From: Caballeronia sordidicola
Lineage (GTDB): Bacteria > Pseudomonadota > Gammaproteobacteria > Burkholderiales > Burkholderiaceae
Assembly (NCBI RefSeq): GCF_000729995.1
Contig: NZ_JNFG01000020.1
Coordinates: 124,001 to 188,000 of the forward strand
DNA length: 64,000 nucleotides
Direction: 5' to 3'
In this document: positions 27,788 to 42,639 of the stretch, piece after piece
How the letters are laid out: the number at the start of each line of letters is the position of its first letter
Numbering within the stretch: the first letter of the stretch is position 1
Notes under the pieces: model-generated
What the model was told of the DNA's origin: nothing
Databases searched by the model: none
The model's input: the letters and a program-made list of their open reading frames with translations, nothing else
Position numbers and translations under genes: made by a program

Positions 27788-28783
27788 CTAATAGCTCAGC
27801 GCTTCACGCAAACGCGCCAGCCTTTCGTGTGCGACACGGCGCGCAGCGAGCGTTTGTTCCATCGACACAGCGACAAAACGCGCTCGATGATTCGGCTGCA
27901 TCTGGCCTATCAGATCCATGTCCGCGCTGATCACGGTGCCAATGGTGGCGTAGCCGCCGCCGGACACGGCATCGCGATGCAGGATGATCGGTTCGAGCCC
28001 GCCGGGCACCTGGATGGAACCGATCGGATAACACGCATCGACAATGTTCGATGGGTCAGCGCCCGCGCCAAAAGGTTGCACGCGTTCGCGGAATTGCAGG
28101 GCGCGTCCCTGCTTGTAGCGGTAGCCGATCCGATCCGCTTCCGGCGCGACTACCCAGGTGTCATCGAAGAAAGTGCGGGCCGATTCGTCGGTCAAGCGGT
28201 GGTGATAGAGCCCGGGCAACACGCGCAATTCGATTTCCCTGGCTAGCGGCGTTCTGAGGTCGGCACGCAACTCGCGTCCTTCTTTCGCCGGTTGTTTGGG
28301 CGCCTGACTGGTCAGTCGATCGCCCTTTTGCAAACGCCGTCCGTTGAGTCCGCCGATCGCACCCAGGGTGTAGGTCGAGCGGCTCCCCAGCACGACCGGC
28401 ACGTCGATACCCCCGGCCACCGCAAGGCACGCCCTGGCGCCCGCCTTCACGTGATCGAACGTGAGCGTGCTCCCGGCCTTGATACGCAGCGAGACATTGC
28501 AGGACTGCGCGACACCATCGATCTTCGGGGTCATCTCTGCACCGGTGACGGCGATCACGGTGTCCGTATGAAACACCAGTTGCGGCCCGAGCAACGTGCA
28601 TTCGAGTGCGGCCGCGTCTTCGCTGTTGCCGACCAGCAGGTTCGCCGCTCGCAATGAAAACTGGTCGAGTGCACCCGAGGGTGGAATGCCGACGTAGTAG
28701 TAGCCTTGCCGTCCGGTATCCTGCACCGACGTCGCAAGCCCCGGCTTCACTACTTCGATCACGCAGGTGGCGTCAGTCGGCAT
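27788..28783 (-). CDS. pxpC: Biotin-dependent carboxyltransferase-like subunit PxpC (KipA/AHS2)
   Basis: A 331-residue protein from the ATG at 28783, which overlaps the pxpB end by 11 bases; an upstream start at 28816 would lengthen the overlap. The AHS2/KipA fold is recognised from VVKPGLATSVQDTGRQGY, the GIPPSGALDQFSLRAAN segment, and GGYATIGTVISADMDLIGQ. With PxpB it forms the 5-oxoprolinase partner complex. The same two folds make the carboxyltransferase domain of urea carboxylase. Here a biotin carboxylase and a carrier protein are co-encoded, which supports a real carboxyl-transfer role. Confidence 0.9.
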   Translation of the reverse strand: MPTDATCVIEVVKPGLATSVQDTGRQGYYYVGIPPSGALDQFSLRAANLLVGNSEDAAALECTLLGPQLVFHTDTVIAVTGAEMTPKIDGVAQSCNVSLRIKAGSTLTFDHVKAGARACLAVAGGIDVPVVLGSRSTYTLGAIGGLNGRRLQKGDRLTSQAPKQPAKEGRELRADLRTPLAREIELRVLPGLYHHRLTDESARTFFDDTWVVAPEADRIGYRYKQGRALQFRERVQPFGAGADPSNIVDACYPIGSIQVPGGLEPIILHRDAVSGGGYATIGTVISADMDLIGQMQPNHRARFVAVSMEQTLAARRVAHERLARLREALSY

Positions 28784-29648
28784 GGAGTACCTCGGCGAGG
28801 GAGCGATTGTAGGCATCGGGATTACGCTTGAATTCGCTCAAGATGAACTTGACGGGTCTCACGCGTAGCGCAAACGTGCCGGCTTCGACCTCGCCAATAT
28901 TGCGATCATAGGTTTCCCGATCGATCGGCTTGAACTTGACGATGTCGCCCGGCCGGAAGAACACCATGAAGTCACGCAAGTAGGAAAGGCGCTGCTCAGG
29001 GTCGAAGATCGGGGCGGGCGTCACGCCGAACATCTGGTAACCGCCTGCGCCGCGCACCGAGTAAATGCAGCCGAAACAACCGCCGTGGCCGACGGTGAGT
29101 TTGGGGGTATCGGTACGCGGGCGCAGATACTTCGGCACTTCGAGTTGCCGTGATCGTTCGACCATCTGGAACATGAAGGGCAAGCCCGCGACGAAACCCA
29201 CCATCGAAACAAACCATGGCGCGCCTGAATGCGCAGCAATGAACGCATCGACGCTGCTTAGGCCATTGATGCGCGCGGCATATTCCAGATCGGTCGATGA
29301 AGGGTCCTGGTGACGTTCCCGAAAACGCATCTGCGTCTCATGGGTCCACGGATCGTTGTAGAGCACAGGCACTTCCACAATGCGTGTTTCCAACTCTAGA
29401 GGTGCATCGCCTACCTCTGCCTCGATCTGCTTGAGCAAGGCGAGCAGCGTTTCGGGCGCGATCACGTCCGGGTCGTATCGAACCTGATACGACGCGTTGG
29501 CGGGACAAATCTCCGTCACGCCCGCTACGTTGCGACGCTGTAGCTCACGCGTGATCGCAGTCCCTTTGAAGAAGGCATCGAGCGACATGTCCTCGCTGAT
29601 CTCGACGAAGATGAACTCGTCGCCGCCGAATGTATAACGGGCGCTCAT
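28773..29648 (-). CDS. pxpB: 5-oxoprolinase subunit PxpB (KipI/AHS1 family)
   Basis: A 291-residue AHS1/KipI-fold protein. The start at 29648 overlaps the biotin carboxylase stop as ATGA. Typical features are the N-terminal GDEFIFVEISED, the middle PVLYN and MVGFVAGLPFMFQM, and the conserved glycine-rich VGHGGCFGCIYSVRGAGGYQ. It pairs with PxpC. In Bacillus KipI inhibits kinase KinA, but in this operon setting the metabolic role is far more likely. Confidence 0.9.
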   Translation of the reverse strand: MSARYTFGGDEFIFVEISEDMSLDAFFKGTAITRELQRRNVAGVTEICPANASYQVRYDPDVIAPETLLALLKQIEAEVGDAPLELETRIVEVPVLYNDPWTHETQMRFRERHQDPSSTDLEYAARINGLSSVDAFIAAHSGAPWFVSMVGFVAGLPFMFQMVERSRQLEVPKYLRPRTDTPKLTVGHGGCFGCIYSVRGAGGYQMFGVTPAPIFDPEQRLSYLRDFMVFFRPGDIVKFKPIDRETYDRNIGEVEAGTFALRVRPVKFILSEFKRNPDAYNRSLAEVLHAD

Positions 29649-31054
29649 GCCGCCTCCTCGCTTTGGTTGCGCTTTGCGGCGCGTTGCGCCATCCATGCCT
29701 CAAGAAAATTCGTGTGATATCGGCCCGCGCGAATATCCGCGTCTGCGAGCATGGCCTGATGCAGCGGCGCGGTCGTCTTGACGCCGCCAATCTTCATTTC
29801 GCGCAGCGCGCGATCGAGCCGCGCGAGCGCCGCCGGCCGGCTTTCGTCGAGCACGATGAGCTTGGCGAGCAGCGAGTCATAGAACGGCGGAATGGTGTAG
29901 CCCTGATACAGCATTGAATCTATCCGCACGCCGGGGCCGGCCGGCCACACCAGTTCGTCGATACGGCCCGGACTCGGGCGGAAATCGCGCTCGGGATCTT
30001 CTGCATTGATACGGCACTCGATAGCGGCTCCCCGCATGACGATGTCGCGCTGTTCATAACGCAACGGCTCGCCGTCGGCCACGCGCAGCGACTCACGCAC
30101 GAGGTCGATGCCAGTGATGGCTTCGGTCACCGGATGTTCGACCTGAATACGCGTGTTCATTTCAATGAAGTAAAACTCGCCGCGTGTTTCATCGAACAGG
30201 TATTCAAGCGTGCCCGCGCTCCGGTATCCGACTTCACGCGCCAGCCGCGTCGCCGATTCGCATAACGACGCGCGCAGTTCCGGCGTGAGTGAGGGCGAGG
30301 GCGCCTCCTCCATGATTTTTTGTCGACGCCGTTGCAGGGAGCACTCGCGCTCGAACAGATGAACGACGTTTGTGCCATCGCCCAGCACCTGTACCTCAAT
30401 ATGGCGCGCCCGCCCTATAAAGCGCTCCAGATAGACGCCGGCGTTACCGAACGCCGCGAGGGCCTCACGTTGCGCGAGCGGTAGTTCGACATCGAGCTGC
30501 GTCGCATCGTGCGCCACGCGAATGCCGCGTCCGCCTCCGCCCGCAGCCGCCTTGATCATGACCGGATAACCAATGCGACCGGCAACGTCGCGCGCCTGCT
30601 CGAGTGAATCGAGAACCCCCTCGCTGCCCGGCACGGTCGGCACGCCTGCGCGTTGCGCGGTGGCGCGTGCACGGGCTTTATCGCCCATCATCGCGATGAT
30701 GTCTGAAGATGGGCCGACGAAGATCAGCCCGGCGGTCTCCACCTTCTCCGCGAACGCCGCGTTCTCCGATAAAAACCCATACCCGGGATGAATCGCATCC
30801 GCGCCGCATTGTCTGGCGGCTTCGAGAATGGCGTCAGGATTGAGGTAGCTCTTAGCGGCGTGCGCAGAGCCGATCGGCACGGCCTGGTCCGCCATGCGCG
30901 CAGCCAGACTGTCGCGATCCGCGTCGCTCACCGTCACGGCCGCCCGCATGCCCAGTTCCTGCGCTGCGCGAATGACCCGCACTGCGATCTCACCACGGTT
31001 GGCGATCAGCAGGGTGCGAATGCGTTGAGGCTTGTAGAAGGCATCTGAGAACAT
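29645..31054 (-). CDS. Biotin carboxylase (AccC-like) of the Pxp operon
   Basis: A 469-residue ATP-grasp enzyme that carboxylates biotin with bicarbonate and ATP. Landmarks: LLIANRGEIAVRVIRAA, IHPGYGFLSENAAFAE, the glycine-rich ATP lid KAAAGGGGRGIRV, the metal site FIEMNTRIQVEHPVTE, and the C-terminal RIDSMLYQGYTIPPFYD. It is full length. It sits 4 bases after a one-domain biotin carrier gene and overlaps pxpB, so it serves this operon and is probably not the housekeeping fatty-acid enzyme. Confidence 0.93.
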   Translation of the reverse strand: MFSDAFYKPQRIRTLLIANRGEIAVRVIRAAQELGMRAAVTVSDADRDSLAARMADQAVPIGSAHAAKSYLNPDAILEAARQCGADAIHPGYGFLSENAAFAEKVETAGLIFVGPSSDIIAMMGDKARARATAQRAGVPTVPGSEGVLDSLEQARDVAGRIGYPVMIKAAAGGGGRGIRVAHDATQLDVELPLAQREALAAFGNAGVYLERFIGRARHIEVQVLGDGTNVVHLFERECSLQRRRQKIMEEAPSPSLTPELRASLCESATRLAREVGYRSAGTLEYLFDETRGEFYFIEMNTRIQVEHPVTEAITGIDLVRESLRVADGEPLRYEQRDIVMRGAAIECRINAEDPERDFRPSPGRIDELVWPAGPGVRIDSMLYQGYTIPPFYDSLLAKLIVLDESRPAALARLDRALREMKIGGVKTTAPLHQAMLADADIRAGRYHTNFLEAWMAQRAAKRNQSEEAA

Positions 31055-31058
31055 CGGC

Positions 31059-31301
31059 TTAGCCCTCGATCCGCATCAGCACCTGGCCCGCGTCGACCGG
31101 CTCGCCGTCTTCGGCAAGGATCTCGGTCACGCGGCCCTTGGCCGTCGCTTCGATTTCGCTGAATTGCTTCATGACTTCGACGAGTCCCACGGTCGTGCCC
31201 TCGTCAATCTCGCTTCCGATCTCGACGAGCGGCGCTGCATCAGGGGATGAGCGCCTGTAGAACGTCCCGGGCAAGGGGCTGACAATGTCGTGCTGGGCCA
31301 T
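31059..31301 (-). CDS. Biotin carboxyl carrier protein (single lipoyl/biotinyl domain)
   Basis: An 80-residue protein that is just a biotinyl domain. The attachment site VEVMKQ places the biotinylated lysine at 45, and the flanking glycine hinges (PLPGTFYRRSS and GEPVDAGQVLMRIEG) match the family. It lacks the Ala/Pro N-terminal arm of housekeeping AccB. It would shuttle carboxybiotin between the adjacent carboxylase and the PxpB/PxpC pair. Confidence 0.9.
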   Translation of the reverse strand: MAQHDIVSPLPGTFYRRSSPDAAPLVEIGSEIDEGTTVGLVEVMKQFSEIEATAKGRVTEILAEDGEPVDAGQVLMRIEG

Positions 31302-31316
31302 GGTTGTGCTCCTGTC

Positions 31317-32111
31317 TCAGGCGGATTGAAAGCTGTTGGGGGAAGCCAGTTTGGGCGCGGCAATGCGGATGTCGTTGCGAATCAGCGCGTCGCGCGTTGC
31401 CTGGACGAGTTCGAGTGCGCCCGGGGTGTCGCTGTGGATGCAGACCGAATCGAAATCGATGTCTATGTCGCCGCCCTCCACGGTCGTCACGCGTCCTTGC
31501 GTGCAAGCGCGCAGAACTTTTGCCGCCACTTGAGCAGCGTCGAGGCGGCCGACGCGGCGAGTGAAAACGATTGATCCACTCGCGTCGTAGTCGCGATCGG
31601 CGTAGAACTCGCGGACCACGGGCTGGCCCAGTTCGCGCGCCACTTTGTACGTGACCGACGATTCCATGCAATACAACAGCAGGCTCGGATCGATTTTCTG
31701 CAGCGTTCCAATCAGGCAACGCGACAACTCTTCATCCCGTGCTGCGAGCATGTAGAGCGCACCATGGGGTTTCACGTGCTGTACGCCGACATTCGCCAGT
31801 CTTGCGAACTCGCGCAACGCGCCAAGCTGGAACACGATGTCGTTCACCAGCGCCTGCGGCGACTCGGTAATCGTGCGGCGGCCGAATCCGACCAGGTCAC
31901 GAAAACCCGGATGAGCGCCCACGCCCACACCGGCTTCTTTCGCCGATTGAACCGTGCGCGCCATGATATTCGGGTCTCCCGCATGGAAACCCGTGGCGAT
32001 ATTGGCTGAGCTGATCAGCGGCATGATCTCGGCGTCCACGCCGTCTCCGATCGTCCAGGGGCCAAAGCCTTCGCCCATGTCCGAATTCAGGTCGATGCTG
32101 CATTTCTTCAC
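31317..32111 (-). CDS. pxpA: LamB/YcsF family protein PxpA, 5-oxoprolinase subunit A
   Basis: A 264-residue protein of the LamB/YcsF family. It starts with [14 protein letters not shown], the family signature, followed by [20 protein letters not shown] and VKPHGALYM, the His/Asp-rich metal-like site of the seven-stranded barrel. PxpA with PxpB and PxpC opens 5-oxoproline to glutamate with ATP. It is the first gene of the minus-strand operon, with the start 232 bases from the divergent LysR gene. Confidence 0.92.
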
Positions 32112-32201
32112 GATGGGGTGTCTCCTGATTCATCGGCCCGGGTAAGCACGAACGCTCCCCGCAGTGCCGATGACATGAACCTTATGGCGCGGCGGCGCGC
32201 C

Positions 32202-32217
32202 AAAATAGTTCTATTTT
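32202..32217. promoter_or_regulatory. Inverted repeat in the pxpA-lysR intergenic region
   Basis: AAAATAG-TT-CTATTTT is a perfect 7-bp inverted repeat in otherwise GC-rich DNA, roughly 90 bases from the pxpA start and 127 from the lysR start. AT-rich dyads of this kind are typical LysR binding sites. The assignment is inferred from position. Confidence 0.5.
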
Positions 32218-32343
32218 CAGATGACCTGTATCTGTTTTTTCGATGCGGCGTCGACCGCTCGTTGCTTATTGCTACTCACTCGACCGGGGGATTTTGCGAA
32301 GATAAGATACTGCGACGGGCAATATCAATTTTTGGCGGGTACC

Positions 32344-33261
32344 ATGGCTTTGACTCTCCGGCAGCTTAAGTACTTCGTGGCAACGGCCGAACTAGGGCAA
32401 ATATCGCAGGCTGCAATTCAACTGACGATTTCCCAATCAGCGGTGACAAATGCGATCAAGGAGCTTGAGGACAGCCTGGGCACTCAGCTCTTTGCACGCA
32501 TGTCGAGCGGCGTCACGCTGACTCAAACCGGCCGAAAATTTCTGAATCAGGCCTACACCATCCTCTCTTCCGTCGAAGAGGCAATGCGCATTCCGAATCT
32601 GGAGAGCACGCTGACCGGAACGCTCACCATTGCGGCGAGCTATACGGTGATCGGTTATTTCCTGCCGCATCATCTGCAGCGGCTAAGCACGCTCTATCCG
32701 CTGCTCTCCATCAATCTGCATGAACTGAATCGCGAGTCGATCGAAGAGGGCCTGCTCAGCGAGCGCTACGACATGGCGGTTCTGTTGACGTCGAACGTGG
32801 CGAACCCGGAGCTTGTGTTGGAACCGGTGATTCACTCTGTGCGCAGGCTTTGGCTTTGCGCGCATCATCCTTTGCTCAAGCGCGAAAGCGTCACGCTTGC
32901 TGATGTTGCGCCAGAGCCGTTCGTCATGCTGACTGTAGATGAAGCCGCTTACACGGCGCTGCGCTATTGGGCCGATACACCGCACAGGCCGAACGTGAAG
33001 CTGCGCACGTCGTCGGTGGAGGCTGTCCGAAGCATGGTGGCGAACGGAAGCGGCGTCGCCATCCTCTCCGACATGGTCTACCGCCCCTGGTCGCTGGAAG
33101 GGAAGCGGATCGAAACTGTGGTCCTGCGCGATCAGGTTCCACCCATGAGCGTCGGCCTTGCGTGGCGCAAGAACCGTGAGTTCAGCCCTGCGATGCACGC
33201 GGTACGGGAGTATTTCCGCCATACTTTCATGGAACCCCGATCGAGCGTGAGCAATGTTTAG
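32344..33261 (+). CDS. LysR family transcriptional regulator
   Basis: A 305-residue LysR protein from the ATG at 32344. The N-terminal HTH reads LRQLKYFVATAELGQISQAA and ISQSAVTNAIKELEDSLG, followed by the linker helix and a two-lobed effector domain (about 90-295). It is divergent from the pxp operon and therefore its likely regulator. The co-inducer could be 5-oxoproline or a related lactam. The longer in-frame upstream extension has poor composition and was not used. Confidence 0.92.
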   Translation: MALTLRQLKYFVATAELGQISQAAIQLTISQSAVTNAIKELEDSLGTQLFARMSSGVTLTQTGRKFLNQAYTILSSVEEAMRIPNLESTLTGTLTIAASYTVIGYFLPHHLQRLSTLYPLLSINLHELNRESIEEGLLSERYDMAVLLTSNVANPELVLEPVIHSVRRLWLCAHHPLLKRESVTLADVAPEPFVMLTVDEAAYTALRYWADTPHRPNVKLRTSSVEAVRSMVANGSGVAILSDMVYRPWSLEGKRIETVVLRDQVPPMSVGLAWRKNREFSPAMHAVREYFRHTFMEPRSSVSNV

Positions 33262-33944: not shown

Positions 33945-34754
33945 CTAAAGCGCGGCCTTCGGACTCGGCGCGTCATCGAACGCACCCCACACCGATTGAT
34001 CGTAATTCACCATCGACCCTGTCATCAGGCCCGACTCCTCGCTCGCCAAAAAAGCCACCGCGCGCGCCGCTTCAGCCGGGTCGATCAACCGCCCGAACGG
34101 TTGCGCAGCACTCGCTTGTGTCAGCCAGTCGTCGGCCGCGCCGTGGTATTCCCGCTGAATCCGATCCTCGCCATCGGAGGCCATCCAGCCGAGATTCAAG
34201 CCGTTCACCCGAATCCTGTTGCGCAACAGCGCGTAACCCGTGTTCTGCGTGAGCGTGGCCAGTGCTCCCTTCGACGCACAATACGCCGCGATGAACGGTT
34301 GCCCCGACATCGCCGACATCGAGCAGATGTTGACGATCGAACCTTCAATGCGCTCGCGCCGCATGACACGAATGGTCTCCTGCATCAGGAAGAACGGCGC
34401 CCGCACGTTCGTCGCGAAGACGCGGTCGAAGAGCGCAGGATCCGTGTCGATGATCGTGCCGCGATCCGTCATGGCAGCTGCATTGACCAGTACATCAATG
34501 CGCCCAAACCGCGCGTCCGCTGCCGCGATCACCGCCCGGCAATCGTCGACTTGCGAGAGATCCGCCTGCACGTAACGAACGTCCGCGCCGCTTGCCTCGC
34601 TCAACTCACGCGCCTTCGCTTGGCCCTTCTCCTTCGAACGCCCGCAGATAACGACACCCCTCGCGCCGCGCTCAACGAACAGCGCCGCGATCGCGGCTCC
34701 TAGCCCTTGTGTACCACCGGTGACCACAGCCACCTTGCCGTCGAACTGTCCCAT
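33945..34754 (-). CDS. SDR family NAD(P)-dependent oxidoreductase
   Basis: A 269-residue short-chain dehydrogenase. The nucleotide motif VVTGGTQGLGAAIA, the structural NAAA, the catalytic Ser in IVNICSMSA and the YCASK catalytic pair are present. GGAGAG precedes the ATG, 27 bases after the ABC ATPase gene, so it is the last gene of the sugar-transporter operon. It would oxidise a hydroxyl of the imported sugar or cyclitol. In rhizobial rhizopine loci a Gfo/Idh/MocA dehydrogenase fills that slot, so this would be a replacement. Confidence 0.9.
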   Translation of the reverse strand: MGQFDGKVAVVTGGTQGLGAAIAALFVERGARGVVICGRSKEKGQAKARELSEASGADVRYVQADLSQVDDCRAVIAAADARFGRIDVLVNAAAMTDRGTIIDTDPALFDRVFATNVRAPFFLMQETIRVMRRERIEGSIVNICSMSAMSGQPFIAAYCASKGALATLTQNTGYALLRNRIRVNGLNLGWMASDGEDRIQREYHGAADDWLTQASAAQPFGRLIDPAEAARAVAFLASEESGLMTGSMVNYDQSVWGAFDDAPSPKAAL

Positions 34755-34781
34755 CGATTTATCTCTCCACCATGTAGTCGA

Positions 34782-35576
34782 TCAAAGCATCTCTGTTACT
34801 TCTTCGATAGACGTCTGCGCCACCGGCTTGTCGAGCACGACTTCACCGCGCGCCATTGCGACAATCCGGTCGCACGAGTGAAACACGTGCTGCAGGTTGT
34901 GGCTGATGAACACGCCGGTAATGCCCTGAGCCGATAAGCCCCGCACAAACCCGATCACCTTGCCCGTCTCCTTGACCGATAAATGGTTCGTCGGTTCATC
35001 GAGGATCAGCACCTTCGACTTGAAGTGCATCGCGCGCGCAATCGCCACGCCCTGGCGCTGACCGCCCGATAGTTCGCCCAGCAGCGCTTCCGCGGAACGC
35101 AGATGCAGGTCGACATCGGCAATGGCTTTGACGGCGTCGGCGCGCATGCGCGCATGGTCCATAGGGCCAATGCCGAACAGCGAAAACAGCAGCGGCTCGC
35201 GCCCGATAAACAGATTGCGCGCAATCGACAGGTTCGGCACGAGCGAGTTGTGCTGATGAATCGTTTCGATACCCAACTGCATGGCCGCTTTCGGCGTGGG
35301 GATGCGCACAGGCCGGCCCTGGAACAGGATCTCGCCTTCATCCGGCCGATGCACGCCCGAAAGAATCTTGATGAGCGTCGACTTTCCTGCGCCGTTGTCG
35401 CCGAGCAGGCCCACGACTTCGCCGCGTTTGAACTCCAGGCTCACGCCTTTGAGCGCATGCACGCCGGAGTACCACTTGTGCAAGTTGCGCACCGCCATCA
35501 GTGAGGTCGATGTAGTAAGCGCGTCGGCGGCGCTGTCGTTGTCGGCGTAGGAACTTAGAGAAGAAAGTGTGTTCAT
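34782..35576 (-). CDS. Sugar ABC transporter ATP-binding protein (ribose/fructose type, single domain)
   Basis: A 264-residue ATPase from the ATG at 35576, which overlaps the permease stop (ATGA). Walker A GDNGAGKST, signature LSGGQRQGVAIARAM, Walker B VLILDEPTNHL and the H-loop FISHNL are intact. Unlike RbsA it has one ATPase domain, as in FrcA-type importers, so it should act as a homodimer with a permease dimer. It belongs to the operon with the permease (35573) and binding protein (36563). Confidence 0.92.
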   Translation of the reverse strand: MNTLSSLSSYADNDSAADALTTSTSLMAVRNLHKWYSGVHALKGVSLEFKRGEVVGLLGDNGAGKSTLIKILSGVHRPDEGEILFQGRPVRIPTPKAAMQLGIETIHQHNSLVPNLSIARNLFIGREPLLFSLFGIGPMDHARMRADAVKAIADVDLHLRSAEALLGELSGGQRQGVAIARAMHFKSKVLILDEPTNHLSVKETGKVIGFVRGLSAQGITGVFISHNLQHVFHSCDRIVAMARGEVVLDKPVAQTSIEEVTEML

Positions 35577-36553
35577 AGCTGGACCTTCAGATGTCGCGCC
35601 GTGCGGCGCATCCATGCGTTGGCGACGACCGCGAAAATGGTCAGGCTGCCGACGGCGAACTTGAACCAGTTGGCATCGACTTGTGTCAGCACCAGGCCGT
35701 TATCGATCACGCGAATCAGCAGGGCACCGACCACTGCGCCAAGCACATTGCCGATGCCGCCGGACAGGGCGGTCCCGCCGATCACCGCAGCGGCCACAGC
35801 TTGTAGCTCGAGACCATCGCCTATTGATGGAAGCGCCGCGCCAAGCCGCAGCACCTGGATCAAACCCGCGAAACCTGCAAGCACCGAGCACAGCACGAAG
35901 GAGAACAGCTTCACGCGCCGCGCCGGCACACCACTCGAGATAGACGCTTCAAGGAAGCCGCCAGTTGCTTTCATCCAGTTGCCGAGATTGGTCGCGGACA
36001 GCAAGAATGCCGCTGCCGCACCGATGACGATGAACCAAAGAAACGACGCACGAAACAACCCCTCAGGTCCTATGAAACTCACGAACAGCTGCGCGGGCAT
36101 CCGTTCAATTGGCAGGTTCGGCGGAAAGCCGCCGGACAGCACGACGGTCAGCGAGCGCACGATGAACAACATGCCAAGCGTGGTGATGAAACTCGGTATG
36201 TTGAAGACCAGCGTGATCAATCCGTTAGCGAGTCCCACGCACGCGGCGACCACCAGCCCGATAAAAAATGCCGGCCAGAACGGTACGCCGGCATTCATCA
36301 ACAACGTGATCGCCATCGGTGTGAGTGCAAACACCGATCCCACCGACAAATCGAACTCACCGCAGATCATCAGCAGCGTCACGCCTATTGCCACCAGTCC
36401 CACTTCAGGCAACACGCCAAGCACGCCACGGATATTTTCGGCGCTGAGAAATATCATCTGCGAGCGCACCTGGAACAAACCGATCAGCACGGCGAGCAAT
36501 ACAATGCCCGCCAGCTCCGGTTTCTGCAGGTAGATCTTGAGCAGCTTTTTCAT
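35573..36553 (-). CDS. Sugar ABC transporter permease (RbsC/FrcC type)
   Basis: A 326-residue inner-membrane protein of the branched-chain/ribose permease fold, with eight to ten helices. It has an N-terminal ELAGIVLLAVLIGLFQVRS segment, EFDLSVGSVFALTPM typical of RbsC-like proteins, LITLVFNIPSFITTLGML, and AVAAAVIGGTALSGGIGNVLG in overlapping short motifs. It couples to the ATPase gene by ATGA overlap and follows the binding-protein gene by 9 bases. With them it would import a monosaccharide or inositol-like compound. Confidence 0.92.
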   Translation of the reverse strand: MKKLLKIYLQKPELAGIVLLAVLIGLFQVRSQMIFLSAENIRGVLGVLPEVGLVAIGVTLLMICGEFDLSVGSVFALTPMAITLLMNAGVPFWPAFFIGLVVAACVGLANGLITLVFNIPSFITTLGMLFIVRSLTVVLSGGFPPNLPIERMPAQLFVSFIGPEGLFRASFLWFIVIGAAAAFLLSATNLGNWMKATGGFLEASISSGVPARRVKLFSFVLCSVLAGFAGLIQVLRLGAALPSIGDGLELQAVAAAVIGGTALSGGIGNVLGAVVGALLIRVIDNGLVLTQVDANWFKFAVGSLTIFAVVANAWMRRTARHLKVQL

Positions 36554-36562
36554 GCGAATCTC

Positions 36563-37573
36563 CTAGCGCAAGCCTTGTTGCGAGAGCGCGATGACCGAGT
36601 CCGCCTGAGCGGGCATGACGAGCGAATTGCCGGTGTTGATATCGGTGGGCGCGAGGCCGAACGACTTCGCCAGATACACCTGCATCACAGGCATGAAACC
36701 TTGCGCATACGGTTGCTGATCGACCTCGGCCTGGATATAGCCGGCCTTCATCATCTGCAGGACCTGAGGCACGATATCGAAGCCTGCAAGCAGCACCTTG
36801 CCCGGCGGCACGTTACGGTCCTGCAATGTGCGAGCGACGGCTGCATGGAAGAAGCCCATGTCGAAGTACGCCGTTGTATCGGGGTGAGCGGTGAGATAGG
36901 CGCCAACGCGTTCACCTGTGACCGAGAGATCCGTGCCCGAGTCGATGCGATCAATCACGACAGTGCGAGTGGGGTTGGCGCGCTTCCATTCATCGAGACC
37001 TTCCATCACGCCTTTCGCGCGCTGCTCGGCCCAGTTCTGCCCCGGCGCGCTGACACCAATCAGCACGCGGATCGGGCCGTCCTTCGGAAACTGGCTGGTG
37101 AGTTGATGCGCAAGACTGCGCCCGGCCGGGACAAAGTTCTGGCCGATAAACGCCTGCCGTTTCGCGGCGCCCGTCGCGCCGCCGCTTTGATCGACGTTAT
37201 AGGCGATCACGATGATGTGCTTCGCGCGGGCGTCGTTGATCATCGGCGTGAGCGCGTTGTCGTCCACAATGGTCGTCAAGATTGCATCGGGCTTGCGCGC
37301 GACCGCGGCCTGGAAATTCGCGCTTTGCTGTTCGATCGAGCCGTCGGTTTGCGTAAAGACCATCTGGCAATGTGCCTGAACGCGCGTGCAGGCATCGTCG
37401 AAACCTTTCTTCACGGCCTGCCAGAACGCGTTGGTCGCCGCGCCGTGCGTCAGCATCACAATGTTCAGCGGCTCTGCGCTGTGAGCAACGCTCGCAGCGA
37501 AAAGCGTGGACGTTATGCATGCCGCTATCGCCAACTTCGAACGCGTTTGAAATGTGCTGAATCTCCGGGTCAT
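36563..37573 (-). CDS. Periplasmic sugar/inositol-type binding protein (MocB-like candidate)
   Basis: A 336-residue solute-binding protein of the ribose/inositol class (Periplasmic_binding_4). A signal peptide (about 1-33, ending SVAHSA) precedes LNIVMLTHGAATNAFW, the first strand and ligand loop, and VDQQPYAQGFMPV near the C-terminus, the usual DQ-P pocket. It is the first gene of a minus-strand operon with permease, ATPase and SDR, divergent from a LacI gene. The linked oxygenase set suggests a methylated cyclitol or amino-inositol such as rhizopine, but this is inference. Confidence 0.88.
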   Translation of the reverse strand: MTRRFSTFQTRSKLAIAACITSTLFAASVAHSAEPLNIVMLTHGAATNAFWQAVKKGFDDACTRVQAHCQMVFTQTDGSIEQQSANFQAAVARKPDAILTTIVDDNALTPMINDARAKHIIVIAYNVDQSGGATGAAKRQAFIGQNFVPAGRSLAHQLTSQFPKDGPIRVLIGVSAPGQNWAEQRAKGVMEGLDEWKRANPTRTVVIDRIDSGTDLSVTGERVGAYLTAHPDTTAYFDMGFFHAAVARTLQDRNVPPGKVLLAGFDIVPQVLQMMKAGYIQAEVDQQPYAQGFMPVMQVYLAKSFGLAPTDINTGNSLVMPAQADSVIALSQQGLR

Positions 37574-37719
37574 CTCTTGTCTCCTGTTATGTCCCGTGCG
37601 CGACTGCATCCGCGGTGCGAATGTCAGGCCGTCGTGCGGGGTACTGCTGTCGCCGTTCGTGGCCGGTGACTTATTAGGTAGGGCTTTGCTCACGCGCCCG
37701 CTTGATAGGCGAGTGCGGT

Positions 37720-37733
37720 TGATGCGATCATCA
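37720..37733. promoter_or_regulatory. Possible LacI operator between the divergent regulator and transporter operon
   Basis: TGATG-CGAT-CATCA is an inverted repeat of 5 bp with a 4-base CG-containing centre. It lies about 40 bases upstream of the LacI gene and 147 from the binding-protein gene. It is the best dyad in this gap but short. Confidence 0.4.
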
Positions 37734-37773
37734 GGTCAGTCCCGTGGTCCATTCCCTAAACCGTGTAAGGCTC

Positions 37774-38814
37774 ATGCCCGATCTGACCAACCGCCGTAAA
37801 ACGAGCATGGCCGATATCGCGAAGGCCGCCGACGTCAGCGAAGCGACCGTTGACCGCGTCCTCAACGGCCGTGGCGGCGTCTCGCGCGAGAAGGAGCGGC
37901 GCGTGCTTGAATGGGCGCGCAAGCTCAAGATCGATCGGGCGCTCGATGCGGTATCGGTGCGCTGGTTGCGCATCGCAATCCTTTTGCAGCAACCCGTTGC
38001 GCCGTATTACGTCTATCTCAAGCAGGGTTTCGAAATCGCCCAGAAGGCATTCGAAGCGCAGCGCGTGATCTGCGCGGTGACTTACTTCGATAACCTCGAG
38101 CCGGCGCGTGTGGTCGAGACCATCAGCCGCGCGACGCAGAAGGCCGACGCGCTGATCATCGTCGCGTATGAACATCCCGACATCACGGCGGCGCTGCGAC
38201 AGGTCAGCCGTGCGATGCCGGTCGTCACGCTTGCCAGCGACTTGCCGGGAACAGGGCGGCTGGCCTATGTGGGTATCGACAATCGCGGGGCAGGACGCGT
38301 CGCGGGCGAGCTGATGGGCCGCTTTATCGGCGATGCGGGAGGCAAGGTGCTCGTGATGACGGGCATGCATGATTTCCTCGGCCATGAAGAACGTGAAAGC
38401 GGTTTTCGTTCGGTACTGCGGCGGCGTTTCCCTAACTGCGACATCGTGGAGACCGTCGAGAGCCGCGAGCAATCCGGGCTCACCGAAAAGCTCACTCGCG
38501 ACGCGTTCCGGCGCTATCCCGACCTGCGCGGCATCTACAACATTTCAGTCGGCGACGAAGGCGTCGGTGCGGCACTTCAGGCGCTCGACCGGGTTCGTTC
38601 GACGGTGTTCGTGGGCCACGAACTCAACGACATTTCGCGGCGCTTGCTCATTGAAGGAACGCTCGACGCCGTGCTCGACCAGAACCCGGCCGCCGAAGCA
38701 ATGCGTTCCATCGAAATCATCTTGCGGCACTATCATCGCGATCCTGGCGTGGCGTTGCCGCAGCAGATTCCGGTCACGGTGTTGTTGCGCGAAAACCTTC
38801 CGCTCAGCGACTAA
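37774..38814 (+). CDS. LacI family transcriptional regulator of the Moc-like locus
   Basis: A 346-residue regulator from the ATG at 37774, which has AAGG upstream. The HTH reads SMADIAKAADVSEATVDRVL. The effector domain is of the sugar-binding type, seen in VAPYYVYLKQGFEIAQKAF and VGIDNRGAGRVAGELMGRF. The unusual TVDRVL (TVSRVL is common) is shared by regulators of ribose/inositol-type transporters. It is divergent from the transporter operon and convergent with the isomerase gene, whose stop codon it overlaps by 11 bases on the opposite strand. Confidence 0.92.
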   Translation: MPDLTNRRKTSMADIAKAADVSEATVDRVLNGRGGVSREKERRVLEWARKLKIDRALDAVSVRWLRIAILLQQPVAPYYVYLKQGFEIAQKAFEAQRVICAVTYFDNLEPARVVETISRATQKADALIIVAYEHPDITAALRQVSRAMPVVTLASDLPGTGRLAYVGIDNRGAGRVAGELMGRFIGDAGGKVLVMTGMHDFLGHEERESGFRSVLRRRFPNCDIVETVESREQSGLTEKLTRDAFRRYPDLRGIYNISVGDEGVGAALQALDRVRSTVFVGHELNDISRRLLIEGTLDAVLDQNPAAEAMRSIEIILRHYHRDPGVALPQQIPVTVLLRENLPLSD

Positions 38815-39673
38815 GCGCTAAAGGCGCGGGTTTTTCCTGGCGGCACAGGCCGTCCCAAAGTTCGCGAATCCAGCCCTGCATCAGCTTTGATTCTGCCCAG
38901 CGATCGGTTGTGTCATTGCCATCGCGGCCGATGATTGCGTAAGGCTTGGGTCCCAGCTCGCAAGTAAAGACCAGCGTGTCGTCAGGACCGGCGCGTCGTT
39001 GCCACGACGCAAAGCCGTAAGACCACCAGTCGAGAAACAGGTCCACCCAGATCCGGTGCGGCTCGAATGAGATCTCTATCTGCACTTGCTCACGGCTTGC
39101 GACGCGGCCGTGAAACGCCCACGAGTGATCGAGAATCCGGTGCATATCCGCGTGGTTTTCATCGGACACGGGCAGCGCGAATTCACGTCCGACCAGATAG
39201 TGCGAGATGTCGCCGAGCAGTTTCAGATCCGGACGGGCATCGAGCAGATCGAGTGTGAAATGCAGGTCGGTCGTCATGCGGTCCCGATGCGTTTCGATAT
39301 ACACCGGAAAATCCACCTGCTCGGCGAGCCTTGTCCATCCATCGATCAACTTGAGCGCGTCATCGAGGCGACGTGGGCGTACATCGGGCTGCAAGTCGAT
39401 GTGATGCACGCCGAATTCGGTGGCTATTTCAAGGATCGGTTGCAGGTCATCTACCGTACTCGGGAAACATTGTCCTTCTGCTTGCAGGCCGAGCGGTCTT
39501 AGCAAACCGCTAAGCCGACGCACGTCATCGCGCGATGCATAAGAAGTGCTGACGCCGTTAAAGCCCGCCTGCGCGATCATCGCTATGTTGTCTTCAAGCG
39601 AGCGCTCATGACCGTCGGTGTGACGCCGCTCCATTGCCCATAGCGACTGATAGATGTCGAGCCGTTGCGTCAT
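38804..39673 (-). CDS. Sugar phosphate isomerase/epimerase family protein (MocC/IolE-like)
   Basis: A 289-residue TIM-barrel protein of the AP-endonuclease-2 superfamily. The ATG at 39673 overlaps the reductase stop (ATGA), and this short form was chosen over a longer frame that is merely the reductase read out of phase. Metal-site residues expected of the family appear in FPVYIETHRDRM, LKLLGDISHYL and QIEISFEPHRIW. Rhizobial MocC and IolE/IolI belong to the same superfamily and act on inositol derivatives. It is the last gene of the four-gene operon that begins at 42379. Confidence 0.88.
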   Translation of the reverse strand: MTQRLDIYQSLWAMERRHTDGHERSLEDNIAMIAQAGFNGVSTSYASRDDVRRLSGLLRPLGLQAEGQCFPSTVDDLQPILEIATEFGVHHIDLQPDVRPRRLDDALKLIDGWTRLAEQVDFPVYIETHRDRMTTDLHFTLDLLDARPDLKLLGDISHYLVGREFALPVSDENHADMHRILDHSWAFHGRVASREQVQIEISFEPHRIWVDLFLDWWSYGFASWQRRAGPDDTLVFTCELGPKPYAIIGRDGNDTTDRWAESKLMQGWIRELWDGLCRQEKPAPLALSR

Positions 39674-40923
39674 AGCGCCTCCACGGCAAGCAGCGGCTTG
39701 AGCTTGACGCTGCGATCGGAAAGCAACGAGGGTGCAACGCACGCGCGCCGCGCAATCAACTCCTGCGCTACGCGCACGTCGCGAGCGATCTCGCTTGCCT
39801 GGCCCACGCCGCTTGCGCCGACCAGCACGCCATCGCGATCCAGCGCGAAGAAGACCCGCGAAGCGGCGCTCGTCTCGCGCACGGCTGTCGTGACGCCGAA
39901 CGCAGGCATGCCGGCAATCTGTATGGTCATGTCGTATTGATCGGACCAGAACCACGGGACTTCGGAATAGGTCTCGCCGCGGTCCAGCATGTTGCGCGCG
40001 ACAATGCGCGCATGGTCCTCCGCGTTCTTCCAGCATTCGAGCCGCATGCGGCGCCTGAAGAGCCGGTGCGGGAACGAGCAGACATCACCCGCCGCAAAGA
40101 TATACGGATCATTGGTGCGCAGCGTGTCGTCCACCGCAATACCATCTGCTACGTCGATACCGGCCGCTTCCGCCAGTTCCGTGCGCGGCTTCACGCCAAT
40201 GCCGGCGATCACGCAATCGCACGCTATGCTCGTGCCATCGGAGAGCTTCACGCCCGTGACGCGTTTCGTGGTGGAGCCGATGATCCGGTCGACCTGCACG
40301 GCGAAGCGCACGTCCACGCCCATCTGCTTGTGCCGCTCCACCAGATATGCCGCGACGATCTCCGGCACAGCACGCATCAGCGCACGCGCTGCCGCTTCGA
40401 TCACGATCACTTCACAGCCTCTCGCGATGGCTGTTGCCGCGATCTCCAGCCCGATGAAACCCGCACCCACGATCGCGATCTTGCGTCCCGGCAACAACTC
40501 GCCGACCACACTCGACGCGTCTGCAGCCGTGCGCAACACATGCACGCCCTCAAGCGTTGCGCCGGGCGCACTCAGGCGCCTTGGCGCAGCGCCGGTGGCA
40601 ATGAGCAGCCGGTGATAGGCGACGGTATGTCCATCGTTTAGAACCACTTTGCGCGACGCGCGATCGATCTGCCGTACGCCCGCATCGACGCGCAGATCGA
40701 TACGTTGCTCGGAATAAAACGTCTCGTCATACAGCGCACATTGCGTTGTGGTTTTTTGACCGAGCAGCACGGCCTTTGAGAGCGGCGGCCTGTCATAAGG
40801 TGCAACCCCTTCATTGCCGAGCAGCGTGATCTCGCCGTCCCAGCCGTTGTCGCGCAACGCATGGGCGGCGCGCGCTCCGCTTTGCCCGGCGCCGATGATC
40901 ACCATCGCGGGTCGGCTTTTCAT
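39670..40923 (-). CDS. Ferredoxin reductase, FAD/NAD(P)-dependent (MocF-like)
   Basis: A 417-residue flavoprotein of the oxygenase-coupled ferredoxin reductase family. It has the FAD fold VIIGAGQSGARAAHALRD, the family hallmark YDRPPLSKAVL, the NADH fold IAIVGAGFIGLEIAATA, and the FAD-binding AAGDVCSFPH near 270. It would transfer electrons from NADH to the Rieske ferredoxin next door. Both ends overlap neighbouring genes by ATGA, so it is strictly co-translated with the ferredoxin and isomerase genes. Confidence 0.92.
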   Translation of the reverse strand: MKSRPAMVIIGAGQSGARAAHALRDNGWDGEITLLGNEGVAPYDRPPLSKAVLLGQKTTTQCALYDETFYSEQRIDLRVDAGVRQIDRASRKVVLNDGHTVAYHRLLIATGAAPRRLSAPGATLEGVHVLRTAADASSVVGELLPGRKIAIVGAGFIGLEIAATAIARGCEVIVIEAAARALMRAVPEIVAAYLVERHKQMGVDVRFAVQVDRIIGSTTKRVTGVKLSDGTSIACDCVIAGIGVKPRTELAEAAGIDVADGIAVDDTLRTNDPYIFAAGDVCSFPHRLFRRRMRLECWKNAEDHARIVARNMLDRGETYSEVPWFWSDQYDMTIQIAGMPAFGVTTAVRETSAASRVFFALDRDGVLVGASGVGQASEIARDVRVAQELIARRACVAPSLLSDRSVKLKPLLAVEAL

Positions 40924-41270
40924 GACGCAGCCTTCGCTTGCGACGGGACACCAAGCAGCACTTCGCCGCCTTCAATGCGCACCGGGTAAGTCTTCAAATG
41001 CACGCAGACGGGCGGGCTCTTGGGCTTGCCGGTCGGAATATCAAAACGCCCCTGATGCAGCGGACATTCGATCTCGCGATTCAGCACGAAGCCATCGGCG
41101 AGATGCGCGCGTTCATGCGTGCACCAGCCGTCCGACGCAAAGAAACCTTCGGCGATCCGATACACCGCGTAACTCGCGCCGGCGTGATCGAAGCGGACTA
41201 CGTCTTCTTCCGCAATCTCGCTGGCAGCGCAGGCGACGACCCACTCGATGTCATTCGTTTCAACGGCCAC
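40920..41270 (-). CDS. Rieske-type [2Fe-2S] ferredoxin (MocE-like)
   Basis: A 116-residue single-domain Rieske protein. Cluster ligands are seen as GWCTHERAHLADG (C-x-H) and IECPLHQGRFD (C-x2-H), spaced as in bacterial oxygenase ferredoxins. It would carry electrons from the reductase to the membrane oxygenase encoded at 41306. The start codon is 35 bases after the oxygenase gene and its end overlaps the reductase start. Confidence 0.93.
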   Translation of the reverse strand: MAVETNDIEWVVACAASEIAEEDVVRFDHAGASYAVYRIAEGFFASDGWCTHERAHLADGFVLNREIECPLHQGRFDIPTGKPKSPPVCVHLKTYPVRIEGGEVLLGVPSQAKAAS

Positions 41271-41305
41271 AAAAGCCTCCGGGTTGTTGTTGGAGTTATT
41301 CAGGT

Positions 41306-42379
41306 TCAGATGCCCGGCTGGGTCGCAAATGTTCCGCGCGGAGCGCTTTCAACCGGCACCTTGCGTTCGATCACGTGACCCGGCTCGGAACGCTGTTTCC
41401 ATAACGCGGGCACCATCTCGCGATACACGGCGTAAAGGCTCGGATAAGCGGGCGGAAGCTGATCCTTGATGACTTCATGCAAACGCGGCAGCGCGTGGAA
41501 TGGCACCATCGGCAGGAGATGGTGTTCAAGGTGATAGTTCATGTTCAGGTAGAGAAAGCGGAAGACCGGATTGATGTAGACCGTACGTGTGTTCAGCCGA
41601 TGGTCTTTCACGTTGACCGCGAGGCCGGCATGCTGCGTGAGGCCGAGCAACTGATGCAGCCAGCCGCCGTAAAACCGCGGCGTCCACACGAACATCAGCG
41701 GCAGGAAACTATGGAGCGCGATAGCAAGTCCGATCGTGCCGATGACCACCAGCAGATAGATTCGGCATGACCAGATCATCTTCGGCTTTTCGGTGGCGGG
41801 GAGGAACGCGTCGGTGGCGGCATCCACGCGGCCAAATGCATGCCGCACGATCTTTCCGATTTCAAGCGAAGTACCCAGCAGTCCGAAGAAATCGACGATG
41901 ATCGGCCAGACCTTCGTCGGTCGTGCGACCTGGATTTCCGGATCACGCTCCTCGAAGTACGTGTGCGTGTGGTGACGTGCGTGACTCCAGCGCCACCAGT
42001 AGCCTTCGCGAATCGTCAGGAACGAAGACAGGTGATAGAACGCGTCGTTGAGCCAGCGGGTCTTGAAGGGCGTGCCGTGGGCGAGTTCGTGCCAACGGGC
42101 GTCGCTGGACGAATAGATCGTGCCGTAGACCAGAAAGGCTGGCACCGCCCACCACGTGCCCCAGCACAGCGCTGCCACCCACCCCGACGCGATCAGCAGC
42201 AACAGCCACGGCACGAAATTACGCAGGCCTTCGGCGTCGCTGCGTTTCATCAGTTCTTTCAGAACGGCGCGCGGAATGCGTGGCTGGTACCACTGCTGGC
42301 CGATACGCTCGTCCAAAGTCGGGTCGGTGAGGCCGGGCTTGGCCGTATCGGCGCCGCTGATGTCGGGAGTCGAGGACAT
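41306..42379 (-). CDS. Fatty acid desaturase-family membrane di-iron oxygenase (MocD-like)
   Basis: A 357-residue integral-membrane protein with the three histidine boxes of the desaturase/alkane hydroxylase superfamily: HELAHG, HARHHTH and YHLEHHLLP. Hydrophobic helices lie between them (LLLLIASGWVAALCWGTWW, YLLVVIGTIGLAIALHSFLP). A di-iron centre would activate oxygen using the co-encoded Rieske ferredoxin and reductase. Together with a MocC-like gene this makes a MocD/E/F-type oxygenase that could cleave a methyl ether, although true lipid desaturation cannot be excluded. AGGAGA precedes the ATG. It is the first gene of the operon. Confidence 0.9.
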   Translation of the reverse strand: MSSTPDISGADTAKPGLTDPTLDERIGQQWYQPRIPRAVLKELMKRSDAEGLRNFVPWLLLLIASGWVAALCWGTWWAVPAFLVYGTIYSSSDARWHELAHGTPFKTRWLNDAFYHLSSFLTIREGYWWRWSHARHHTHTYFEERDPEIQVARPTKVWPIIVDFFGLLGTSLEIGKIVRHAFGRVDAATDAFLPATEKPKMIWSCRIYLLVVIGTIGLAIALHSFLPLMFVWTPRFYGGWLHQLLGLTQHAGLAVNVKDHRLNTRTVYINPVFRFLYLNMNYHLEHHLLPMVPFHALPRLHEVIKDQLPPAYPSLYAVYREMVPALWKQRSEPGHVIERKVPVESAPRGTFATQPGI

Positions 42380-42434: not shown

Positions 42435-42639
42435 GCTTCCCGTCAGTACAACCGCCGGGCGACCCTCTTGTTGACACAACGATAGATGACCGCCGCTTGC
42501 TGCTCACTCAAAAAAATGATGGGTTTCCATCAAGTGCGACTGGGGGCCGTATCGGCTAAGGCTGTCGAAATGGAAATTAAATTCCACCTATCTAATTCAT
42601 GAAACTCGCATTGCACCGACTCAAACGGTCTCACATGCT

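Follow-up and report, generated by a model that had tools for sequence, protein, structure and literature searches.

A variant LacI-MocDEF locus in Caballeronia sordidicola as a candidate for the catabolism of O-methylated cyclitols

The stretch of DNA analysed here, which we call the window, comprises 64,000 nucleotides of the Caballeronia sordidicola genome (10.26 Mb in 216 contigs; positions 124,001 to 188,000 of contig NZ_JNFG01000020.1), and holds at 33945-42379 a locus that an earlier note, made from the sequence alone, had described as a candidate for rhizopine-like catabolism outside the rhizobia. Scans for open reading frames and profiles confirmed the layout given there, with nine open genes in which two minus-strand operons flank a single plus-strand gene for a LacI-family regulator. 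The first operon encodes a MocD-type di-iron oxygenase of the FA_desaturase family (357 amino acids, 41306-42379; Pfam PF00487, histidine boxes HELAH, HARHH and HLEHH), a MocE-family Rieske 2Fe-2S ferredoxin (116 amino acids, 40920-41270), a MocF-type ferredoxin reductase carrying flavin adenine dinucleotide (FAD; 417 amino acids, 39670-40923; PF07992 and PF14759) and a xylose-isomerase-like protein of 289 amino acids (38804-39673), whose naming as a triosephosphate isomerase (TIM)-barrel protein rests on its predicted fold. The ATGA-type overlaps noticed before among the last three genes span four bases each (ferredoxin/reductase at 40920-40923, reductase/TIM at 39670-39673). The regulator, with a Peripla_BP_4 effector domain, occupies 37774-38814, with 37774 as the probable start within a longer frame from 37744. 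In the second operon we find a periplasmic sugar/cyclitol-binding protein (36563-37573; PF13407), an ATP-binding cassette (ABC) permease of the ribose/inositol class (35573-36553; PF02653), a single-domain ABC ATPase (34782-35576; PF00005) and a short-chain dehydrogenase/reductase (SDR) of the PRK06198 subfamily (33945-34754), probably a cyclitol dehydrogenase. The start of the binding protein at 37573 was read from the sequence and has AGGAGA just upstream; permease and ATPase genes also overlap by four bases, provided that the ATPase starts at 35576 within a longer frame from 35615. Lastly, a palindromic candidate operator, TTGATGGAAACCCATCA, lies on the minus strand upstream of the oxygenase operon (42517-42533). 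With moderate confidence, we interpret the locus as serving the catabolism of an O-methylated, presumably plant-derived, cyclitol and as a new variant of the LacI-MocDEF kind, for which pinitol, ononitol, bornesitol and sequoyitol are candidate substrates.

Rhizobial mocDEF genes demethylate rhizopine, and the moc locus on a plasmid of Rhizobium indicum (L100, mocCABRDEF, its genes named by their order) was taken as the reference. The window oxygenase, ferredoxin and reductase are, respectively, 47% (over 320 amino acids, E 7e-107), 52% and 45% (over 412 amino acids) identical to MocD, MocE and MocF of this locus, which bears out the MocD/E/F-type oxygenase chain proposed before; the ferredoxin reaches 129.7 bits with TIGR02377, slightly below the cut-off of 136.15. 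As a member of PF00487, the oxygenase might instead be taken for an ordinary lipid or carotenoid desaturase lying beside unrelated sugar genes, an explanation that we find scarcely credible. The window protein scores 308 bits to MocD versus at most 88 to four desaturases, and when the tree was rooted on a single desaturase, the smallest group uniting the window protein with MocD comprised 74 of 84 rows, the other three desaturases all falling outside it. The desaturase branches in this tree are very long and a free tree did not join the four; a tree constraining them together was better by 17.9 log units, with a p-value of 0.75 in the approximately unbiased test (p-AU). From the first tree 14 near-duplicates of 96 rows were omitted, and from both trees the long-branched L038_5715 and L080_4972. 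A fatty acid desaturase identity was therefore rejected on bit scores and rooted tree, so that the grouping with lipid desaturases that the earlier note had named as the outcome contrary to its proposal was not what we found. The histidine boxes are conserved across an alignment of 15 oxygenases, and no solved structure was matched by the oxygenase sequence. Also speaking against the desaturase explanation are the conserved operon with its dedicated ferredoxin and reductase and the existence of natural fusions, which join the oxygenase to a Rieske domain (L034) or to Rieske plus reductase domains (L055 and L078) and indicate that such parts work together. These three fusions come from metagenome-assembled genomes of Verrucomicrobia and Chloroflexi, and the fused reductase belongs to another family (NAD_binding_1).

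The likeness to the rhizobial moc locus lies in these three homologues, which keep the same order in the window. In contrast, the window has a LacI protein and not MocR, an SDR and not MocA, a TIM protein that is neither MocC nor IolE and an unrelated binding protein, with no PanB-like or PurU gene beside the set. True rhizopine (3-O-methyl-scyllo-inosamine) catabolism outside the rhizobia would fit the MocDEF homology, but we consider it very improbable, since none of the 12 window proteins compared matched MocC, MocA, MocB or MocR of L100, which illustrates the complete moc set, at E 1e-3. The binding protein, previously described as MocB-like, gave no match at that threshold to the L100 protein in the mocB position, and the MocB assignment was rejected. 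Its best named model is the rhizopine binding protein of NCBIfam (NF052284), at 138.1 bits against a cut-off of 420; none of 101 genomes exceeded this cut-off, and the L100 protein in the mocB position itself fails to match the model at E 1e-30, so the rhizopine name carries no weight. With the same model, binding proteins encoded next to mocD in Burkholderiaceae (L087 and L104) reach 211-236 bits and one near the iolE gene of this genome 227 bits, and the model's name may mislead annotation. The MocC/IolE-type isomerase of the earlier note did not survive either: direct comparison of the TIM protein with L100 MocC, a true IolE at 395 bits, aligned 47 residues at 28% identity with a chance-level E of 0.095, no match to TIGR04379 was obtained at 1e-3, and the assignment was rejected. 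As for the SDR proposed in the place of MocA, the gene is present as stated, but the protein has no match to MocA at E 1e-3, and an identity as MocA was rejected. Because the MocB and MocC matches fail, rhizopine itself is not indicated; with no homologue of MocB, MocC, MocA or MocR among the 12 proteins it was rejected as the substrate. Judging from its genes, the window locus uses an oxygenase of the rhizopine-pathway type, yet it is not the rhizopine pathway.

A better guide to the locus is offered by its relatives. The arrangement at the window is that of a LacI plus MocD-MocE-MocF-TIM module, and in 27 related Burkholderiaceae loci, all found via the oxygenase and some truncated at contig ends, we counted the ferredoxin in 26, the reductase in 24, LacI in 22, the TIM gene in 19, the SDR in 13 and the importer in 7 (thresholds of 60% identity and 70% length). 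Seven loci, of which six are labelled Caballeronia and one Burkholderia sp., have an oxygenase with 91-95% identity to the window protein. More widely, a LacI of the same sequence cluster as the window protein was found in 61 of 92 loci. In Pseudomonas, all 25 loci (two of which, L062 and L064, share one contig) have a LacI gene upstream of mocD and facing away from it, with a TIM match in 24, one of them partial, and a contig end in the remaining one. The gene beside LacI-mocD in several of these Pseudomonas loci (cluster c11) encodes a sigma-54 regulator and is not an iol gene. Two loci place LacI and MocD among inositol genes. In the Plasticicumulans locus L076 the genes stand in a row: iolA and iolG (both above their cut-offs), a MocB-like binding protein (51% identity), an importer, MocD, MocE, MocF, TIM, LacI and an IolC-type kinase. 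In Aidingimonas (L037), LacI and MocD come after iolE, iolA and iolG, genes that Pfam places with IolC and IolD, and a binding protein. L024 combines an oxygenase 80% identical to that of the window with a binding protein that stands where the window has its importer and shares 57% identity with MocB. In the Burkholderiaceae locus L170, LacI-MocDEF is joined by a different TIM gene, an importer and a protein resembling MocB (48%). MocB-like binding proteins occurred in 14 of 80 MocD loci versus none of 40 control regions. These 80 loci, the best of 214 found, span several phyla, whereas nine genomes of the genus of the window and one of its order supplied the controls, picked at round positions; the counts of MocB-like, iol and one-carbon genes rest on chosen cut-offs.

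The oxygenase itself may be exchanged. Five plasmid loci of the rhizobial order (L113-L117) and one of Paraburkholderia phymatum (L118) share with the window MocE, MocF and a TIM protein 66-75% identical to its own, as well as LacI in 5 of 6, but have a hydroxylase of the 'sterol desaturase' type (PF04116 in L113) in the place of the oxygenase; L117 and L071 hold both oxygenase kinds, and one set of this type is followed by an S-(hydroxymethyl)glutathione dehydrogenase gene. In pSymA of Sinorhizobium meliloti ABS7 (L115, 5381-9844) the hydroxylase, ferredoxin and TIM matches are in several unannotated pieces, and the set looks broken. Related arrangements were already known. A FixV-like LacI protein lies beside mocDEF in rhizobia, its gene being followed downstream by a TIM gene in R. 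etli and R. leguminosarum, and an inositol derivative has been proposed there (PMC3538637, in the part available). Such rhizobial loci differ from the window by the PanB-like gene that follows mocF in the seven that were opened, by a TIM protein of another sequence cluster and by a set without SDR or importer. In Pseudomonas syringae, mocDEF adjoins a gene named xylose isomerase (mocDEF-xylA2), again without mocCABR, and SDR and importer are not mentioned in the portion of that text available (PMC5132102). Occurrence of mocDEF outside the rhizobia had therefore already been published, for P. syringae, and the window locus is a variant of a LacI-MocDEF kind described, in the parts of these sources consulted, both in rhizobia (PMC3538637) and in P. 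syringae (PMC5132102).

Among the remaining proteins, the SDR scores 456.1 bits to NCBIfam PRK06198, far above the cut-off of 240, and has plasmid relatives that directly follow iolE in Acidiphilium (L110, 75%) and Pantoea (L111, 71%). It occurs in 8 of 200 Burkholderiaceae genomes, all of them among the 34 that have MocD (hypergeometric 3e-7, relatedness ignored). SDR and mocD share one contig, at most 23 kb apart, in seven of these eight; in the eighth they lie on separate contigs and both genes hold a stop. Moreover, the SDR gene directly follows mocDEF in two Caballeronia genomes (G052 and G047) whose MocD is of another type (48 and 47% identical to that of the window), which indicates that the SDR accompanies MocDEF across two MocD types, and it is the fourth gene after mocDEF in L167 and L168. 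The TIM protein has no Pfam match. A profile built from the window protein and 24 of 41 clustered TIM rows gave among solved structures no better than AsbF (E 0.0065) and IolE (E 0.016), and IolI was absent among the 50 matches listed for its predicted structure; going by this modelled fold, the protein is probably an inosose isomerase or epimerase. The genome may also offer a route onwards, as contig C24 carries an iolE over the cut-off, IolD-, IolC- and IolG-like genes, an importer, a binding protein and an RpiR-like regulator. Altogether, the SDR and LacI-MocDEF-TIM relatives found among iol genes and this separate iol cluster agree with the earlier note in making a methyl-ether cyclitol the best substrate class.

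A plant O-methyl-inositol appears as the likeliest substrate in the light of two published studies, each consulted in part. In root exudate of Mimosa pudica, pinitol was the most concentrated compound measured (145 uM), and Rhizobium mesoamericanum exposed to exudate raised mocDEF 1.5- to 2.1-fold together with an importer that has a MocB homologue (PMC5789663). In turn FixV, a LacI protein akin to those beside rhizobial mocDEF, was proposed as a responder to an inositol derivative (PMC3538637).

Several observations weigh against a cyclitol substrate, or at least dilute the evidence for it. In the part of PMC5789663 available, the authors interpret the mocDEF response as rhizopine use and not as pinitol use. 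IolE is present in 34 of 34 genomes with MocD versus 80 of 200 overall, but iol-positive genomes amount to 93% of Caballeronia and 100% of Paraburkholderia in the available part of PMC9430895, which confounds the figure and leaves the co-occurrence consistent rather than decisive. Among the SDR plasmid loci that were opened, three in number, the one from Neorhizobium lacks annotated iol genes, and such genes lie inside the fetched flanks of just 4 of 80 MocD loci (none of the 40 controls), too few to count alone. The importer points elsewhere: its nearest relatives outside Burkholderiaceae (61, 65 and 71%) have no annotated iol genes beside them and sit with an enolase-family dehydratase, an aldose epimerase and an FAH hydrolase. 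It is because of these sugar-acid contexts that a methylated sugar becomes the main rival, with the same chemistry acting on a methyl hexose or 6-deoxyhexose, the TIM protein as an aldose/ketose isomerase and the SDR as a sugar dehydrogenase. We hold this to be unlikely, as the nine genes include no lactonase, sugar-acid dehydratase or aldolase, and it is SDR and LacI-MocDEF-TIM relatives that adjoin iol genes; being present in only 7 of the 27 related loci, the importer says least about the core.

The fate of the methyl group was approached through neighbouring one-carbon genes. In the seven annotated rhizobial MocD loci that were opened (L084-L086 and L100-L103), mocF is always followed by a PanB-like gene, with purU in 3/7 and folD in 2/7; PanB-like stands for 3-methyl-2-oxobutanoate hydroxymethyltransferase, and such proteins may have a one-carbon role in demethylation. 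The C. sordidicola genome itself has a second mocD locus (L087, contig C15, 5858-10866), with a MocE-like ferredoxin, a LacI 68% identical to that of the window, a binding protein, a MocD (42-43%) and a class III formaldehyde dehydrogenase over the cut-off, directly before hydrogenase-like genes. This second locus may be a better candidate for cyclitol use with formaldehyde handling. Such neighbours, PanB-like, purU and folD in rhizobia and the formaldehyde dehydrogenase of L087, fit a release of formaldehyde. To be set against it, no one-carbon gene was found in the window locus, and PanB, PurU, FolD or FrmA genes occurred in 3 of 80 MocD loci versus 1 of 40 controls, which is no enrichment.

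The lack of enrichment of one-carbon genes around window-type MocD favours the possibility that the oxygenase acts as a hydroxylase on a different position, or on a different small polar compound, without demethylation. The GntB-type enzyme of the same broad family is an arginine hydroxylase, and a MocD relative (36.6%) with a ferredoxin adjoins a guanidino-oxopentanoate decarboxylase gene, from which it follows that the family does more than demethylate. Nevertheless, the window oxygenase scores 308 bits to MocD versus 176 to that decarboxylase-linked relative, and formaldehyde or one-carbon genes do adjoin MocDEF or TIM relatives, so we judge this explanation rather improbable. A further proposal would have the methyl lost as methanol, the SDR forming a ketone and the TIM protein eliminating the methoxy group, with the oxygenase serving another step. 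DgpB/C-type enzymes act on keto-sugars. This route would, however, make MocDEF superfluous, and two relatives have a class III formaldehyde dehydrogenase alongside; we give the proposal very little credence.

Regarding regulation, the palindrome of the candidate operator, TGATGGNNNNCCATCA, precedes the oxygenase start by 138-153 bases, and its 16-base core occurs once in the window versus a mean of 0.00 in 100 shuffles. It is exact in 23 of the 27 Burkholderiaceae loci, with one mismatch in three more (L021, L024 and L026). R. leguminosarum likewise has exact copies at two loci (L102 and L103), where a TIM gene follows LacI and the site lies some 140 bases upstream of that gene; L103 has in addition a related site between LacI and mocD. 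A perfect related palindrome, TTGATAGAAAACTATCAA, lies between LacI and mocD in all four Pseudomonas loci scanned. Outside the window group, 11 LacI-to-mocD-type regions were scanned, and in 6 of them the palindrome was not clear. The exact pattern is found at three places in the genome, the other two being inside open reading frames. This conservation supports the view that the LacI protein controls the oxygenase operon through the candidate operator. As to the importer operon, no palindrome common to the sequences upstream of both window operons emerged at the settings used. Between the LacI and importer genes lies a second, weak candidate for a regulator site (37700-37733), formed by a GCTTGAT element, identical in 8 of 8 aligned LacI-importer intergenic regions, and an inverted repeat TTGATGCGATCATCA that is absent in L016; LacI control of the importer is thereby weakly suggested.

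For the breakdown of a methylated cyclitol, the parts may be assembled as follows. The ABC importer would take up the methylated cyclitol, and electrons would pass from NADH via the FAD reductase to the Rieske ferredoxin and on, as their homologies suggest, to the di-iron MocD-type oxygenase. By analogy with the rhizobial model, the latter would hydroxylate the methyl-ether carbon to give a hemiacetal that decomposes into formaldehyde and the free cyclitol. The SDR may oxidise the free or still-methylated cyclitol to an inosose, which the TIM-barrel enzyme would isomerise or epimerise towards scyllo-inosose, and the breakdown could then be completed by IolE, IolD and IolC, encoded in the separate cluster observed on C24. 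The LacI protein is expected to repress the oxygenase operon at the conserved palindrome, from which the substrate or an intermediate would release it.

More tentatively, and with somewhat less than even confidence, the locus may be one form of a widespread and exchangeable module for O-methyl-cyclitol demethylation, from which the moc genes for rhizopine would have branched off as a specialised form, and which would supply the route that has been missing for pinitol and ononitol in bacteria. Such a module would consist of LacI, MocE, MocF and TIM proteins with either MocD or the unrelated PF04116 hydroxylase, completed by the SDR or by PanB-like, PurU, FolD or FrmA helpers. Plants commit much carbon to methylated inositols, pinitol and ononitol being abundant in legumes and conifers, and among open-access listings we found no paper naming bacterial genes for the removal of their methyl groups. 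If the proposal is true, the demethylation of pinitol and ononitol by bacteria becomes directly testable in soil bacteria, mocDEF would cease to be a symbiosis curiosity and become part of a more general trait concerned with plant cyclitols, as one of its branches, and the regulator with its site could act as a cyclitol sensor.

Two minor observations concern loss of the locus and its surroundings. In Caballeronia udeis (L008, 10001-13600) a decaying copy retains the oxygenase, ferredoxin and LacI genes, with the TIM, permease and ATPase genes as short pieces only and the reductase, binding protein and SDR not found. Next to the locus in the window, the genes at 27788-33261, judged from their sequence, resemble LamB/YcsF, a biotin carboxyl carrier and a biotin carboxylase, together with a LysR gene, and perhaps constitute a 5-oxoprolinase set.

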